The position numbers and the translations under genes are program-made. From a virus: DNA of 34,008 bases. The notes beneath the pieces were generated by a model. The model was not told where the DNA came from, did not search any database, and was given only the letters and a program-made list of their open reading frames with translations. Shown one piece after another: positions 1,139 through 34,008 of the stretch; position 1 is the stretch's first letter, and each line of letters starts with the position of its first letter. The stretch is from IMG/VR virus record IMGVR_UViG_3300048925_000678, positions 1 through 34,008 of that record; one strand, 5' to 3'.

Positions 1139-2437
1139 CTAAGCCTTTTTAATTAATAAATTATCCAATGCATTAGATGCTTTTTTATCCAGCTTCTTAA
1201 GTGCCTTGGCATATATATTTACGGTAGTTGAAGTTTGAGCATGACCCAGTCTTACCGACACAGTTTTTATATCAATATTTTCAGATATCAAAAAAGTTGC
1301 TGATGTATGTCTTAGCCCATGTAAAGGAATATGCGGTAACTTCTGTTCTTCTTTCTCAACAGTAGAATTATATTTATCAATGATATCATGGAAAGTATGA
1401 TTGGGGGTAGAAAGGTTCATTTGCTTTCCGGATGCCTGGATAAAGATATGATTATTTCCTTCCCACTGATCTCCAAGTGAAAGCCTATATTCTAATTGTT
1501 CTTTTTTATATCTTTCCGCCAGCTTCATAATCGGATCAGGAACTACCACTGTTCTTATTGAGCTTTTACTCTTGGGCATTTTTGTTATTTGTTTATGGTC
1601 TACATATCCAGTAGACTTATTTATATCTATAGTACAATTTTTGAAATCAACGTCATCCCATGTTAGGGCGATTAATTCACCACGGCGCAGACCGCCGAAT
1701 AACGCGAAATTAAAAAATACTCTAAATTGAAGAGGTATATCTCTGGTTTCTGTATACTCCGGAACGTGATATTTTTTCCCGGTATCGTCAATTCTGTCGT
1801 GGGACTTGTAAGTTGTGGCATATTCTTTTTCCAAAGCATTTAAGAATGTTTCAGCTTGGTCTAATTCAAGGTGTTTAACATCCTCCGCAGCTTCCTTGAT
1901 TTCCTTTGGAGGAGCAACCCTGTCGCAAGGATTTGATTCTATGAGCTGCCACAACACCGCCAGCTTTAACATACCGCTTATTATGGCGTGGTCTTTTTTG
2001 ATAGTTACCGGGCTATAACCCCCTTCCTTCCCGTCTTTTCTAACTCCGTCCTCCATGAGATTATTATAAAAACTTTGTAGATGTGTAGGTTTAATTTTAG
2101 CTATTTTCAAATGACCTATAGCCGGAATGATTTTCTGATTTAGCTCCGCCTTATAAGCTTGAAGAGTTGTTTTTTCCAGATGCTTATCAGCGTACTCCTT
2201 TAACCAATATTCATAAAATTCATTAAAGGTCATTTTTTCACCATTTAAATATTTTCCGTTCTTCACTCTTTTTTCAAACTCATAAACGAAATCGTCCAAG
2301 GCTTTTTTCTGTTGCTTTTCAGTCATGTTTTCATCCGGAGTAAAGGTCGTTTTTTCTCTAATCTGTTTTCCGGTTACATCATATCCGTTACTGACTGTTA
2401 TGCGGTAAGTATTCCCTCTTTTTTCTACTGTAGCCAT
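1139..2437 (-). CDS. int: Phage tyrosine integrase
   Basis: Site-specific recombinase that would integrate and, with an excisionase, excise the prophage at the adjacent tRNA-type attachment site. The 432-residue protein has an N-terminal arm-binding domain (about 1-65), a SAM-like core-binding domain (about 70-165) and a catalytic domain (about 190-420). The catalytic residues are visible: R251 in GLRRGEL, a lysine near 289-291, H373/R376 in HGLRH, H399 in LGHA and the nucleophile Y409 in NIYA. An upstream in-frame ATG exists at 2449, but it abuts the ribosome binding site (GAAAGG). The ATG at 2437 has proper spacing and begins the family-typical MATVEKRG, so I chose it. The gene reads toward attL, as is usual for Gram-positive temperate phages. 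Confidence 0.95.
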   Translation of the reverse strand: MATVEKRGNTYRITVSNGYDVTGKQIREKTTFTPDENMTEKQQKKALDDFVYEFEKRVKNGKYLNGEKMTFNEFYEYWLKEYADKHLEKTTLQAYKAELNQKIIPAIGHLKIAKIKPTHLQSFYNNLMEDGVRKDGKEGGYSPVTIKKDHAIISGMLKLAVLWQLIESNPCDRVAPPKEIKEAAEDVKHLELDQAETFLNALEKEYATTYKSHDRIDDTGKKYHVPEYTETRDIPLQFRVFFNFALFGGLRRGELIALTWDDVDFKNCTIDINKSTGYVDHKQITKMPKSKSSIRTVVVPDPIMKLAERYKKEQLEYRLSLGDQWEGNNHIFIQASGKQMNLSTPNHTFHDIIDKYNSTVEKEEQKLPHIPLHGLRHTSATFLISENIDIKTVSVRLGHAQTSTTVNIYAKALKKLDKKASNALDNLLIKKA

Positions 2438-2457
2438 TGTATCAAACATCCTTTCGT

Positions 2458-2515: not shown

Positions 2516-2533
2516 ATGCTTATACTATATATT

Positions 2534-2566
2534 AAATCGCCCCGGCAGCAACCAGGGCGATTTTTT
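2534..2566. terminator. Terminator after the lipoprotein nuclease gene
   Basis: A 9-bp perfect stem (AAATCGCCC at 2534-2542 and GGGCGATTT at 2555-2563) encloses a 12-base loop. It follows the stop codon of the leftward nuclease gene by about 10 bases. The T-run is longer on the plus strand (six T) than on the minus strand (TTT then AATAT), so it may work best against rightward transcription or in both directions. It would separate nuclease transcription from the integrase gene. Confidence 0.6.
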
Positions 2567-2571
2567 ACGTA

Positions 2572-3534
2572 TTAATCACCGACTTTTCCGTCACCGTCCC
2601 GATCATCCATATATTTGTAAAGCCAGTTGTCTGAATAAATCGGCATTTTAAAACCTGCAGCTTTAGCTTCCGCTATTGTCACTTTGCCATTACCATTAGT
2701 ATCAATTCTTGTAAGGTCCGTCTCTTCATTTGATGGTTGTGCAGCAGTAGTTGATTCTTCCGGTGCAGTAGTGAGAGAGGCATTTACTTTATCGGGATCC
2801 ACATTGTCGAAATCATCAACTACTTTTTCGCCTTTAAGTACATACTCAAAGTGATAATGTGAAGGTATCTGTGTTTCATTATCCGGATATGTAATTGTAG
2901 CAACGAAATCTTTACACCCGCCAGCATCTCTAAGTACTTTTTCCATATATGCCTGGTCGCCATGTCTGTTTAAGGTGCTGTCCTGCGGTGTAATATTATA
3001 GGCATTTGACACACCGCCTAAAGAATCTGCAATCACATGCCCTTCGTCAAGGTCAGGGCTTTCAGTTCCTGGGACTTTTGCTTCATCCTCATAGTACCTA
3101 CCGTCAGAAGTTACTGGTTCGTTTTCGTCATCCTGTAAAATAACTTTATCCGCGATGACATGTATAAGCTGTCCATATTCGTTAGTTAAACCCCAGTAGG
3201 TCCTATCACCAAATCCGATATCTACAGCCACATTGGGTTGTCTGTCACCAGATAAGTCACCGCCGTCAACCTTAATGATGGTATAGGATTTTCCGTCATA
3301 TGTAAAAACAGAATCATTATCACTGGCAGCAGGAGTATCGTTTGGTGTTTCGGTTGGCGCTGGCGTTCCTGCTGGTTTGTCCGTAATTATTGGAGTTGGC
3401 GTGCTTTCTGCCGTTTGATTTTGAAAAATTGATGAGTCATTACTATTGACTCCGTTATTTTCACATGCTGTTATTGAAAGAAGTATAACAGAGATTACAA
3501 TAATCATTATTACATTTTTACCCGTTCTTAACAT
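2572..3534 (-). CDS. Surface lipoprotein with DNA/RNA non-specific endonuclease domain and calcium-binding-like tail
   Basis: The 320-residue protein starts with a lipoprotein signal: a hydrophobic stretch at about 8-20 and the lipobox ITAC with Cys24. A Ser/Thr/Pro-rich linker (about 35-75) follows. The region from about 82 to 240 resembles the Endonuclease_NS_2 type of metal-dependent non-specific nucleases, with DEGHVIADSLGG (His166) and Asn residues at 177-189 in the NAYNITPQD stretch. The C-terminus has an EF-hand-like loop (D278, N280, N282, E289) and DDRDGDG at 310-316, as in Excalibur/EF-hand modules. It should be anchored outside the cell membrane and cut nucleic acids there. It lies in the leftward lysogeny operon behind the repressor and ImmA genes, so it is probably expressed in lysogens. 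The ribosome binding site AAAGGAG is well placed. The nuclease call is good, but the biological role is inference. Confidence 0.75.
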   Translation of the reverse strand: MLRTGKNVIMIIVISVILLSITACENNGVNSNDSSIFQNQTAESTPTPIITDKPAGTPAPTETPNDTPAASDNDSVFTYDGKSYTIIKVDGGDLSGDRQPNVAVDIGFGDRTYWGLTNEYGQLIHVIADKVILQDDENEPVTSDGRYYEDEAKVPGTESPDLDEGHVIADSLGGVSNAYNITPQDSTLNRHGDQAYMEKVLRDAGGCKDFVATITYPDNETQIPSHYHFEYVLKGEKVVDDFDNVDPDKVNASLTTAPEESTTAAQPSNEETDLTRIDTNGNGKVTIAEAKAAGFKMPIYSDNWLYKYMDDRDGDGKVGD

Positions 3535-3561: not shown

Positions 3562-4020
3562 TTATATCATTTTCATGACCGCCAAATTAGGCTCAAAATA
3601 AATTATGTAACTGTCAATCGTGGCAAATACCCCATACTTACCACGATAACATTTAATAGCTTCGATTAAAAATTCTTCTGTAATATCCAAATATTCAGCC
3701 ATGTCATATAAGGACTGGCAACCGGCATTAAAGGCATTTATAATACCGATTAACCCAACTTGTTTATCGTATGCCCATAATCTGGCTCTATATTCCTGTT
3801 TACGGTTCGCTGTGGTTCGTTGGTCTAGTATATCACCATAAGTAGTATAATAGTGACCGATTTCCTCCGACAGAATACAGGATTTTTCTTTTAATGTTGG
3901 TATATCCTTCCGGATAGCAACCCTATTACCTTTTATCCGGCCCTTAAAACCCGGAATATTAAATTCTTTTACCTTAAGGCCATTATCATATGCCTCATTA
4001 ATTAAGTCCTCGTAATTCAA
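3562..4020 (-). CDS. immA: ImmA/IrrE-type metallopeptidase (repressor-cleaving)
   Basis: This family cleaves partner CI-like repressors to induce phages and mobile elements. In the 152-residue protein the zinc-binding helix reads SEEIGHYYT at about 51-59. The usual HExxH is present as EExxH (E52, E53, H56), and E76 is a candidate third ligand. From memory, first-position substitutions occur in other phage members too. It lies directly downstream of the repressor gene (20-base gap) in the same leftward operon, the classic ImmR/ImmA-like pairing. The start is a TTG at 4020 behind AAGGGGTG, since no ATG is available nearby. No membrane segment is seen, so it should be cytoplasmic. Confidence 0.85.
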   Translation of the reverse strand: MNYEDLINEAYDNGLKVKEFNIPGFKGRIKGNRVAIRKDIPTLKEKSCILSEEIGHYYTTYGDILDQRTTANRKQEYRARLWAYDKQVGLIGIINAFNAGCQSLYDMAEYLDITEEFLIEAIKCYRGKYGVFATIDSYIIYFEPNLAVMKMI

Positions 4021-4039: not shown

Positions 4040-4567
4040 CTAGTCCCAGTTCTTGTCATCGTCCATTATATCATTTGCCTGATTGATTTCTTCTTCTGTA
4101 GGTACTCCATCAGCATGAGCAGCATTAAGCACAATTTCATCTTCTTTTTGTATATCTAATAATTTTGTAGCATATGCTAATACCCTGTCTTTATTTTCTA
4201 AGTTCAGATCATTAAATAGCATCTTTATCTTTACATTAAATATATCATCTTTACTTTTAAGAGCACTCATAAAGTCGGTTAATTTAATACCTTCACGAGA
4301 ACAATAATCATATATTTCACTTGAAGTCATTCTATCAAACATTCCGTTATAATCTCTATCCATGGTAACATCATATCCCATTAACCAAGCTTCATTTACG
4401 TTCAAAGCTTTTGCTAATAGATATATATTATTTTGCTTTGGTTCATATTTTCCAGAAAGGTATGAGCTGAGGGCCCCTTTATTAATCCCAGTTTTTTCTA
4501 CTATGTCAATTTGTTTTAATTGTCTAATTTCCATTCCTTCTTTTATTCTATCAGCTATTGTTTTCAT
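4040..4567 (-). CDS. CI-like phage repressor, XRE-family HTH
   Basis: Maintains lysogeny by binding operators between itself and the divergent early genes. The 175-residue protein has an N-terminal helix-turn-helix at about residues 5-65 (recognition region near QIDIVEKTGINKGALSSYL). Its C-terminal half lacks a visible LexA/S24 self-cleavage domain, which fits inactivation by the adjacent ImmA peptidase instead of autocleavage. The C-terminus is acidic. The ribosome binding site GGAGGT sits 7-8 bases before the ATG. Putative operators with the consensus GTTTAG-N4-CTAAAC lie in the divergent promoter region. Confidence 0.9.
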   Translation of the reverse strand: MKTIADRIKEGMEIRQLKQIDIVEKTGINKGALSSYLSGKYEPKQNNIYLLAKALNVNEAWLMGYDVTMDRDYNGMFDRMTSSEIYDYCSREGIKLTDFMSALKSKDDIFNVKIKMLFNDLNLENKDRVLAYATKLLDIQKEDEIVLNAAHADGVPTEEEINQANDIMDDDKNWD

Positions 4568-4990: not shown

Positions 4991-5896
4991 ATGAACGATT
5001 TAATTATTAAAGGTACCCAAAAATTTTCGGGTAAAATAATCCCGGTGGTATTGGGAGGATTTGGACAGGATAAGAAATGCATGTCTGATAAGACGATTGC
5101 AGAAATTCACGGTATGGAAGTTAAAAATGTCAGGGCAAGAATTACTGACAATATCAAAAGGTTTAAGGAAAATATTGATTTTATCGACCTTAAGAAAGTT
5201 GCTTACGAGACAAGCAACAAAAGTTATACGTTAGATGCACAACAATTATTAGAGCAACTTGGATACTCACAGATGCAGATATCTAAAGCTGAACATATTT
5301 ATCTACTGTCTGAAAGAGGGTATGCTAAATTAATTAAAATCATGGATTCAGATTTAGCATGGGAGATCCACGATAAACTGATTGATGAATACTTCCAGTT
5401 TAGAGAGAATGCAACAAAGCAGATACCAAACAGGGACACTAGGGTAAAAGCTCCATTATCTTCCGCAAACAATGCAGTAAAGATTATGACAAAGCTTTAT
5501 AAGGATGCAGGAGTGGACCCAGCTTTCATTGCCGTGGCAGCTAAGAAATTCATGAAAGAAGCCACAGACCTTGACTTTGATGCCCCGATAACAACGCCAG
5601 AAGAACATTTATATGACAAAACTACTATGGCGGAAATGATGGGCGTATATTCTGAAAAAGGAAATCCTCATGCGCTGTACATAGGGGCGGTTATGTCCCA
5701 TCTTTATATTACACCAGATGAAGTTGTAAATGCTCCATATATGAATCATGGGCATAGTGGAGTAACAGAACAATATAAACAAAGCGTTTATGACAAGGTT
5801 CAGGCGTGGATAATAGAAAATAATTATCCTGAAATGGTTCATTCAAATGAAACCGGTAAGAATATCAAGGCAAAGTTAAATATGGTTTGCTGGTAA
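4991..5896 (+). CDS. ORF6N-type phage antirepressor
   Basis: Predicted antirepressor of 301 residues. The N-terminal half (about 8-140) resembles the ORF6N/KilA-N-like DNA-binding module, including the motif IHDKLIDEYFQFRE at its end. The C-terminal half (about 152-295) is a separate domain that recurs, about three-quarters identical by eye, in the gene at 6814-7494 (shared stretches include APITTPEEHLYDKTTMAE and NHGHSGV). Such proteins typically bind and inactivate repressors or reprogramme early transcription. The ribosome binding site GAAAGGAG is well placed. Its leader and first codons (GAAAGGAGTTCTATGAA) are repeated before the next gene at 6001. Confidence 0.8.
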   Translation: MNDLIIKGTQKFSGKIIPVVLGGFGQDKKCMSDKTIAEIHGMEVKNVRARITDNIKRFKENIDFIDLKKVAYETSNKSYTLDAQQLLEQLGYSQMQISKAEHIYLLSERGYAKLIKIMDSDLAWEIHDKLIDEYFQFRENATKQIPNRDTRVKAPLSSANNAVKIMTKLYKDAGVDPAFIAVAAKKFMKEATDLDFDAPITTPEEHLYDKTTMAEMMGVYSEKGNPHALYIGAVMSHLYITPDEVVNAPYMNHGHSGVTEQYKQSVYDKVQAWIIENNYPEMVHSNETGKNIKAKLNMVCW

Positions 5897-6813: not shown

Positions 6814-7494
6814 GTGCAAAAATTTTCTCACCCCTCACAAAGCGGAGGAATACAAGAGACATATTGCATTGACATTATGAAACTTCCTCTTGCGCTAGCC
6901 AAAATTAATATTACACCTAAAATTCAAAGTGAACTGCCAGAACTTGCGGAAAGATTAGAGCTTTATCAAGACAGATGTGCAGATGCTTTAGCAAAAGAGT
7001 TTAACGTCTATGGAGCGGCAGAGAAAGACCAAAAATCAAGAAAGATTCCTTTATCCTCAGTAAACAATTCTGTAAAGTTTATGGCTAAGTTATATCAAGA
7101 CGCAGGCGTTGAACCGTCATTTATAGCATTAGCAGCAAGCAAGGTATATAAAGAGGCGGCAGGAATAAGCTTTGACGCTCCTATTACTACACCGGAAGAG
7201 CATCTTTATGACAAGACTACTATGGCTGAATTAATGGGAGTATATTCTCTTACTGGGAATCCACATCCGAAGTACATAAGCGCTGTTATGTCTCACCTAA
7301 ACATTGCACCAGATGAAATTGTCAATGCACCATACACAAATCATGGTCATAGCGGGGTAGCTGAACAGTATAAACAGAGTGTATATGACAAGGTCCAGGC
7401 ATGGATAATAGAAAATGATTACCCTGGAACTGTTTGTTCTAATGAAACTGGTAAGAATATCAAAGCGAAATTTACATTACCAGTAGTTAAGTGA
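6814..7494 (+). pseudogene. 5'-truncated antirepressor (P22_AR_N-like remnant plus shared C-terminal domain)
   Basis: The reading frame begins within what looks like the second half of a P22_AR_N-type antirepressor domain (about residues 14-66, with ETYCIDIMKLPLALAKINITPK). It ends with the same C-terminal domain as the gene at 4991 (about 76-222). The normal N-terminal half is missing. The only nearby start is a GTG at 6814, three bases after the upstream TAA, without a properly spaced ribosome binding site unless translation restarts from the upstream gene. An inverted repeat (GGGGTG...CACCCC, 6811-6834) lies at the junction. It may be a recombination relic, or a still-translated repressor-binding domain produced by coupling. 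The rest of the frame is intact, so decay is recent or selection persists. Confidence 0.6.
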
Positions 7495-32925: not shown

Positions 32926-34008
32926 TTATTGATTATATTCTTTTACTTCAAAACTTGAAATTTTATCAAATGATACATATTCTTTAATACTTAGGTAAGG
33001 AGCTATATTTGTAGTTTTGTTGATGATATAGTAAGACTTTCCTGTTCCATCAGATTTTTTATCATACCAAGTCAAGAAGGAGTCAAGATCATTTATTGTT
33101 AAATCATAACTCTTAATTCCACCATTAGTCATTGTTAAAATAAGAGTGGCAGTATTACCGGTATGATCTGGAGGTGTAGTCACATCGGGTATTGTAACTG
33201 AAACCACATTAGAATTAGCGCTTTCCTTCCCTGATATTACAGTACTAACTACATAATAATATGTTCCAGGTTGTAGGTTTTTATCGGTGAAATTTATTGC
33301 TGAACTTGTAGCAATAGTAGTATCAAAAGGGCCTTCTGGATTCGGAGAACGCTTTATATTATAGTATTGAGCATTTACTGCAGGAGTCCAAGATAAATTT
33401 GCATTAGAATTAATAGCTGTTGCGGAGAGCGTTGTCGGTGATGGTATAGTTTCCATCATTTCTAATTCACCAATCGCTGTATAAGCATAACCTCCACAAT
33501 TATTAGTTATATTTATTCTATATTTTTTATATAAGTTTGAATTAGAAAATGTAAATTCCTTTTTAACAAGATAATTCCAATCTGTAATATTTGCTTGTGT
33601 ATCTAAAACCACCCATTTAGCTAGAAGTTCATCATATGCTTCAAAAGTCCAATCTTTTGGTAACTGTGATACGTTAGAGCCTGCATCTGGTCTACAAATT
33701 ATCTTATATTTTGTTATACTTTTCGCATCTATAAAATCATATTCTAACCATCCTGCAACACTTCCATTTGCAGTAACCCAGCCATTTAAATTAGTGGAGA
33801 TGTTCTTGTCAAAAGCCTTCCACGCCGGAAAATCACTAGCAAAAACACTACTTGCACTAGCTATCCCGCTTGGTGATGTATTATTTGTCATAGTTGGAAT
33901 TATATTACCGGTATACTGTACTTCTGCAGCAAAGCTCTTTGTATTACTTAATAAAACTGTTGAAATAAAAACTAAACCCAAAATTAATAATCCTTTTAAC
34001 CGTTTCAT
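32926..34008 (-). CDS. Secreted discoidin-like plus fibronectin type III protein
   Basis: The 360-residue protein begins with a signal peptide (MKRLKGLLILGLVFISTVLL...SFAA, about 1-28). A galactose-binding/discoidin-like (F5/8 type C) domain follows at about 30-190: WKAFDKN, GWLEYDF, YKIICRPDAG, YRINITNNCGGYAYTAIGELEM. A fibronectin type III-like domain lies at about 192-275 (LSATAINSNANLSWTPAVNAQYYNIKRS). The C-terminal 80 residues are unrecognised. It should be exported and may bind carbohydrate or cell wall. The ATG is at the window edge, so the ribosome binding site is unseen, but the signal peptide supports this start. As no attR precedes it, it is probably prophage cargo. Confidence 0.75.
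   Translation of the reverse strand: MKRLKGLLILGLVFISTVLLSNTKSFAAEVQYTGNIIPTMTNNTSPSGIASASSVFASDFPAWKAFDKNISTNLNGWVTANGSVAGWLEYDFIDAKSITKYKIICRPDAGSNVSQLPKDWTFEAYDELLAKWVVLDTQANITDWNYLVKKEFTFSNSNLYKKYRINITNNCGGYAYTAIGELEMMETIPSPTTLSATAINSNANLSWTPAVNAQYYNIKRSPNPEGPFDTTIATSSAINFTDKNLQPGTYYYVVSTVISGKESANSNVVSVTIPDVTTPPDHTGNTATLILTMTNGGIKSYDLTINDLDSFLTWYDKKSDGTGKSYYIINKTTNIAPYLSIKEYVSFDKISSFEVKEYNQ

Follow-up and report, generated by a model that had tools for sequence, protein, structure and literature searches.

A predicted lipoprotein nuclease between immA and int of a phage genome and its possible use by the dormant virus

The DNA described here, hereafter the window, is the whole 34,008-nt IMG/VR virus record IMGVR_UViG_3300048925_000678, which encodes, among others, a terminase, a capsid protein, a DnaB-type helicase, an endolysin and an integrase. 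Behind its repressor and immA genes and ahead of its integrase gene (int), it carries an intact open reading frame (ORF; 2572..3534, minus strand) for a protein of 320 residues, which very probably has the anatomy of a surface nuclease, i.e., a nuclease domain anchored through a lipobox. The enzyme as such is ordinary and common in Gram-positive bacteria; the notable part is its use by a prophage, and its wiring in a lysogeny operon is recurrent. Its position points to a use by the dormant virus, the destruction of stray DNA in the surroundings of the host cell. From the sequence we infer nuclease activity, a surface location, expression in the lysogen, calcium binding and a benefit to the prophage.

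Anatomy of the nuclease and its family

The ATG start of the ORF is preceded by AAAGGAG, and the strong ribosome-binding site found upstream reads AAAGGAGAACTATG. Residues 1–24 (3463..3534, minus strand) show a basic start, a hydrophobic stretch and the lipobox ITAC with Cys24, as would be expected of a bacterial lipoprotein signal peptide; this assignment was read directly, without a signal-peptide predictor, and a similar lipobox is present in 81 of the 91 members of the family alignment. The His-Me finger nuclease domain follows at about residues 70–256 (2767..3327, minus strand). Within it, Pfam Endonuclea_NS_2 matches residues 158–231 (33.9 bits for a cut-off of 27, E 4e-8), and the motif DEGHVIADSLGG, which includes His166 (codon 3037-3039), is found exactly. 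D163, H166, N189 and R190 are invariant or nearly so across the 91 homologues, with His166 strictly invariant. The nuclease EsaD uses H528 for catalysis and N551 as a ligand of Mg2+, and its R552 is bonded to D525 (PMC9616950). The spacing between H166 and N189 equals that between H528 and N551 (23 residues), and D163 and R190 correspond to D525 and R552; by this comparison, H166 would be the catalytic residue and N189 a metal ligand.

Structure models gave a mean pLDDT (predicted local distance difference test) of 65 for the full protein and 68, a slight gain, for a trimmed version, with low values over the catalytic stretch. EsaD was the best structural match (Foldseek E 1e-6; Z 10.7, root-mean-square deviation 3.0 over 126 residues), ahead of Streptococcus agalactiae NucA, endonuclease G, pneumococcal EndA and Serratia nuclease, and all 15 best matches were His-Me finger nucleases. 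At the sequence level, phmmer reached EssD at E 0.07, and a profile search of PDB sequences with a family alignment returned nothing up to E 0.1. As models of moderate confidence still rank EsaD first, we consider the predicted nuclease fold a solid assignment.

The C-terminal calcium-binding-like module (residues 276–320; 2575..2709, minus strand) is composed of a canonical EF loop of 12 residues (278–289, D278-TNGNGKVTIA-E289) and a DxDxDG loop (311–320). EF-hand_1 remains below the Pfam cut-off in this protein (15.4 bits for 25.4, E 0.013), Pfam Excalibur gives no match at E up to 1, and a glycine occupies the place of the cysteine of the Excalibur motif (DRDGDGKVGD). The last 51 residues do align with Excalibur-annotated proteins (E 3e-6); given this similarity, the missing Pfam match and the missing cysteine, we call the tail Excalibur-like only. 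A module of about 50 residues of this kind (residues 270–320; 2575-2727, minus strand) recurs in Excalibur-annotated proteins on plasmids of Vibrio, Alteromonas and Pseudoalteromonas. An earlier note on this DNA had described a lipobox at Cys24, a non-specific endonuclease domain with His166 and an EF-hand/Excalibur-like C-terminus, and had named structure prediction as a check on the fold; the first two descriptions are borne out, the third is a fair one, and the models return the nuclease fold that the note proposed.

The same note knew of no described system combining these parts, which does not hold. Homologues make up a Bacillota family: 84,980 prokaryote genomes, when scanned, contained 295 loci, the best 80 of them with 52-71% identity, and further homologues turned up in 45 plasmid records and about 18 IMG/VR records. 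Among GenBank phages no homologue was found, so that all phage relatives are IMG/VR predictions. Most of the family members examined have a lipobox and the same tail, and their chromosomal loci have no conserved gene neighbourhood, the same neighbour recurring at no more than 4 of 80 loci. The combination of lipobox, nuclease domain and EF-like tail, found across this Bacillota family, is thus the usual build of a roaming gene annotated as “DNA/RNA non-specific endonuclease”; surface DNases of prophages are also known. No characterised member of this nuclease family was found in the literature searched. The G+C content of the gene is 40.7% for a window value of 37.1 ± 2.9%, its third-position G+C lies inside the phage range, and base composition gives no clear sign of a recent arrival.

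The lysogeny operon and the immA-int slot

Read leftward on the minus strand, a repressor gene (4040..4567; HTH_19/HTH_3 in Pfam) is followed, after a 19-bp gap, by an ImmA-like metalloprotease gene with a TTG start (3562..4020; PHROG 87, E 3.5e-33) and, after a 27-bp gap, by the nuclease gene, then by a terminator-like hairpin of 13 bp past its stop codon (2530..2563, assigned to neither strand; −28.3 kcal/mol, z −4.8) and by the gene of a tyrosine integrase (1139..2449; Phage_integrase, E 3e-25). These matches confirm the neighbours that the earlier note had named. The hairpin is possibly bidirectional, since its T run is better on the plus strand (TTTTTT) than on the minus strand; a pattern scan missed a gene-strand terminator at the 3′ end of the nuclease gene, although the hairpin is strong, and it recognised no consensus promoter directly ahead of the repressor on the minus strand. 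With this layout, the nuclease would be transcribed from the repressor operon in the lysogen.

The arrangement is found again in a second phage, L208 (IMGVR_UViG_3300037045_000039), where two helix-turn-helix genes, immA, the nuclease gene and a tyrosine integrase gene stand in this order. The two phages share 39% identity in ImmA, 65% in the nuclease and 19% in the integrase, and at the DNA level they resemble each other only across the nuclease gene and for about 17 bases beyond its stop codon, after which L208 also has a hairpin. An N-terminal membrane helix stands in place of the lipobox in the L208 nuclease; its anchoring would thus be reached by another route. One and the same slot thus carries this predicted surface nuclease, differently anchored, in a pair of lysogeny modules that are otherwise unrelated. 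A tree built from 50 homologues places the window copy in a mainly phage-borne clade of 10 (8 are viral; support 98/96).

Not all phage copies, in this clade or in others, stand in such an operon. The nuclease gene lies beyond the endolysin gene in L002 and L193, between tail fibre and holin genes of the late operon in L003 and L195, and after tail genes in L004, the copies of L004 and L196 being near tail or head genes; it lies beside serine recombinase genes in L005 and L006 and next to a LexA-like repressor gene in L009. The place of the gene in the repressor operon, the terminator-like hairpin and the same order in L208 speak for the earlier note's interpretation, which is supported in part; the gene is, however, not tied to the lysogeny module, as it adjoins tail, lysis and recombinase genes in other phages. 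L124 and L193 are one and the same phage (IMGVR_UViG_3300042922_000861), with a related ImmA, an empty immA-int slot of 13 bp and the same nuclease at the other end, past the endolysin.

The integrase, used as bait for sister phages, gave distant matches only, and ImmA was used instead. This yielded 53 non-redundant phage loci with immA and a downstream integrase gene; the slot between them is empty in 24 and holds cargo in 29. Counting truncated loci too, the cargo includes AbiD (L110, L122), PDC-S19 (L102), PDC-S02 (L177), a ThsB-like Toll/interleukin-1 receptor (TIR) protein (L151), HicA (L105), ParE (L104), RhuM (L106) and a DUF5067 protein (L140), as well as a pair that looks, by eye, like HicA/HicB (L177). 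Lipobox-like ORFs make up 10 of 87 cargo ORFs versus 10 of 691 ORFs elsewhere (odds ratio 8.8, p 1e-5), a count that includes, on the cargo side, at least one match (L176) that could be a sensor kinase lying outside a true slot. We take this enrichment as suggestive only, because the pattern is simple, several control matches are plainly false and some of the cargo lipoproteins look related to one another. No match to the Ltp family was found among the cargo lipoproteins and exported proteins that were checked for it.

The immA-int slot of these Bacillota prophages (L097–L191) is a possible cargo hotspot, which takes in known or candidate anti-phage genes, toxin-antitoxin genes and small lipoproteins without known function. 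Two loci (L154:4716-6016 and L180:5476-6879) have tandem pairs of differing lipoprotein genes directly after immA, with no Pfam match above the cut-off.

Elsewhere in the window, the ORFs at 4991-5896 and 6814-7494 (plus strand) form an antirepressor-like pair with a duplicated C-terminal region (77% identity over 146 residues). The right-hand end of the window, past the endolysin gene, is taken up by an ORF (32926-34008, minus strand) for a predicted secreted protein with a signal peptide and F5/8 type C-like and fibronectin III-like domains; it has the lowest third-position G+C of the record (0.19) and might represent another surface moron or else flanking host DNA.

What a prophage might gain from a surface nuclease

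We propose that the nuclease gene is a lysogenic-conversion gene, or moron, which would be co-transcribed with the repressor gene and immA in the prophage state. Its product would be exported as a lipoprotein and tethered at the outer face of the host membrane, where a Mg-dependent His-Me finger nuclease of the EsaD/EndA/NucA kind would cut naked DNA approaching the cell; the EF-hand-like tail, together with Ca2+, may stabilise the enzyme or keep it near the wall. Fewer events of transformation or free-DNA uptake would then mean that the prophage is less often replaced, cured or joined by competitors, with side effects expected on DNA scavenging and on biofilm DNA. Lower natural transformation as the main benefit to the prophage is the likeliest of the explanations considered here, at slightly less than even odds, and we put it forward tentatively.

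Limiting DNA uptake, the second option raised in the earlier note, has a better precedent than superinfection exclusion (PMC4774983, PMC10893306). According to a review, YokF cut transformation of Bacillus subtilis by one order of magnitude, the Campylobacter jejuni enzyme Dns of CJIE1 by three and those of CJIE2 and CJIE4 by two (PMC4774983), and strains with a broken dns or dns2 are transformable, as seen in field strains (PMC10893306). Pneumococcal prophages are efficiently deleted through transformation (PMC12637031), which provides a motive for an anti-transformation nuclease. Like those DNases, the window protein is, as predicted from its sequence, an exported nuclease encoded in a prophage, with terminase, capsid and endolysin genes in the same record. 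If DNA uptake is indeed limited, a Bacillota case would be added to the ways in which prophages protect themselves from replacement by transformation.

Several points weigh against this proposal. Expression and activity of the nuclease are themselves inferred, and expression in the lysogen is less obvious for the phage copies lying among tail, lysis and recombinase genes. The many chromosomal and plasmid homologues need not have a prophage-specific role. Many Clostridia are not known to transform. Finally, the slot otherwise holds anti-phage genes, which favours an anti-phage role instead.

Such a role would be superinfection exclusion, as raised in the earlier note: the tethered nuclease would cut phage DNA that crosses the envelope or is stalled at entry and thereby protect the lysogen. 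The presence of AbiD, PDC-S19, PDC-S02, the ThsB-like TIR protein, HicA and ParE in the slots of related prophages argues for it, as does the enrichment of the slot in lipoproteins (10/87 versus 10/691). One has to weigh against these points that DNA delivered through a phage tail is normally shielded during its passage of the envelope, that the same nuclease also occurs outside the slot in phages and on chromosomes, and that the window nuclease matches no PADLOC-DB system model at E up to 0.01. A lipoprotein from a lysogeny module, Ltp of phage TP-J34, does exclude phages, but it is thought to work via the tape-measure protein of the infecting phage and not by cutting DNA (PMC3952083), and Pfam matches of the window nuclease include no Ltp domain, which also counts against exclusion. 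Overall, we find this explanation unlikely, and the broader idea that the nuclease is an exclusion effector at the surface and that the Bacillota immA-int slot is a general anti-phage store, including many unnamed lipoproteins, is doubtful to the same degree. Were it true that the nuclease acts on phage DNA, it would represent a new exclusion mechanism; the slot is in any case a simple place to seek more lysogen-expressed defence genes and lipoproteins.

Another possibility, also rather unlikely in our view but a little easier to accept, is that of a moron serving the host and taking no direct part in genetic conflict: the enzyme would supply the lysogen with nucleotides and phosphate from extracellular DNA or loosen the DNA of biofilms. 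With approximately 300 chromosomal loci, 45 plasmid records and no conserved neighbours, the family does resemble a general-purpose secreted nuclease, and a phage-borne DNase of C. jejuni prevents and removes biofilm (PMC4372405); taken alone, however, this explanation does not account for the recurrent placement in the repressor operon or for the mainly phage-borne clade. The late-operon position between tail fibre and holin genes in L003 and L195 and the vicinity of tail or head genes in L004 and L196 would fit a lytic-phase role, in which cutting of the DNA freed by lysis would reduce viscosity or help to release virions, the position in the lysogeny module being incidental. The window and L208 copies are, however, oriented and spaced with the repressor and immA genes, apart from the late ones, and end in a hairpin, and we hold this role to be very improbable. 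Still harder to credit is an antibacterial nuclease toxin of the EsaD kind: this type VII secretion system (T7SS) toxin is the nearest solved fold, but the window protein begins with a lipobox and not with a T7SS-type N-terminus, and its neighbours are immA and int, with no adjacent gene for an EsaG-like antitoxin. Both the lysis-aid and the toxin readings were judged weaker.

Comparison with known systems

Prophage enzymes that act on DNA around the cell offer the closest comparison. YokF is also a lipoprotein and calcium-dependent, and its domain is of the staphylococcal-nuclease type, unlike the Endonuclea_NS_2 domain of the window protein. Encoded in B. subtilis prophage SPbeta, it is a prophage DNase that lowers transformation (PMC4774983). 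The C. jejuni prophage DNases (CJE0566 on CJIE2, CJE1441 on CJIE4 and Dns on CJIE1) lower natural transformation as well (PMC4774983, PMC4372405, PMC10893306); they differ from the window protein by their Gram-negative hosts, and the descriptions used for this comparison report a signal peptide and mention no lipid anchor or EF-hand-like tail.

Staphylococcus aureus EsaD/EssD shares the His-Me finger fold and the catalytic spacing with the window nuclease (PMC9616950). It differs as a T7SS toxin with its antitoxin EsaG, another targeting and about 18% identity only. Two further non-specific nucleases with this fold, Streptococcus pneumoniae EndA, which has a part in DNA uptake, and S. agalactiae NucA, are likewise located at the surface or secreted, but they are chromosomal and match with a Z of only about 5. 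The endonuclease lipoproteins on Bacillota chromosomes and plasmids are much nearer, with 52-71% identity and the same lipobox, domain and tail, but do not lie in a prophage lysogeny operon.

Regarding gene position, Ltp of Streptococcus thermophilus phage TP-J34 is likewise a lysogeny-module lipoprotein, expressed in the lysogen and located outside the membrane (PMC3952083); unlike the window protein, which lacks its domain, it blocks injection of phage DNA, as proposed via the tape-measure protein. SzaL and SpaL of pneumococcal ImmAR prophages, which are regulated by ImmA, are surface-exposed products of the lysogeny module as well (PMC12637031), but they are not described as nucleases and are implicated in the control of induction. 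Secreted DNases of prophages were thus known already; in the present case, the predicted enzyme has an anchor on the cell and its gene is wired into the repressor operon, and another phage, whose integrase is unrelated, repeats this wiring.
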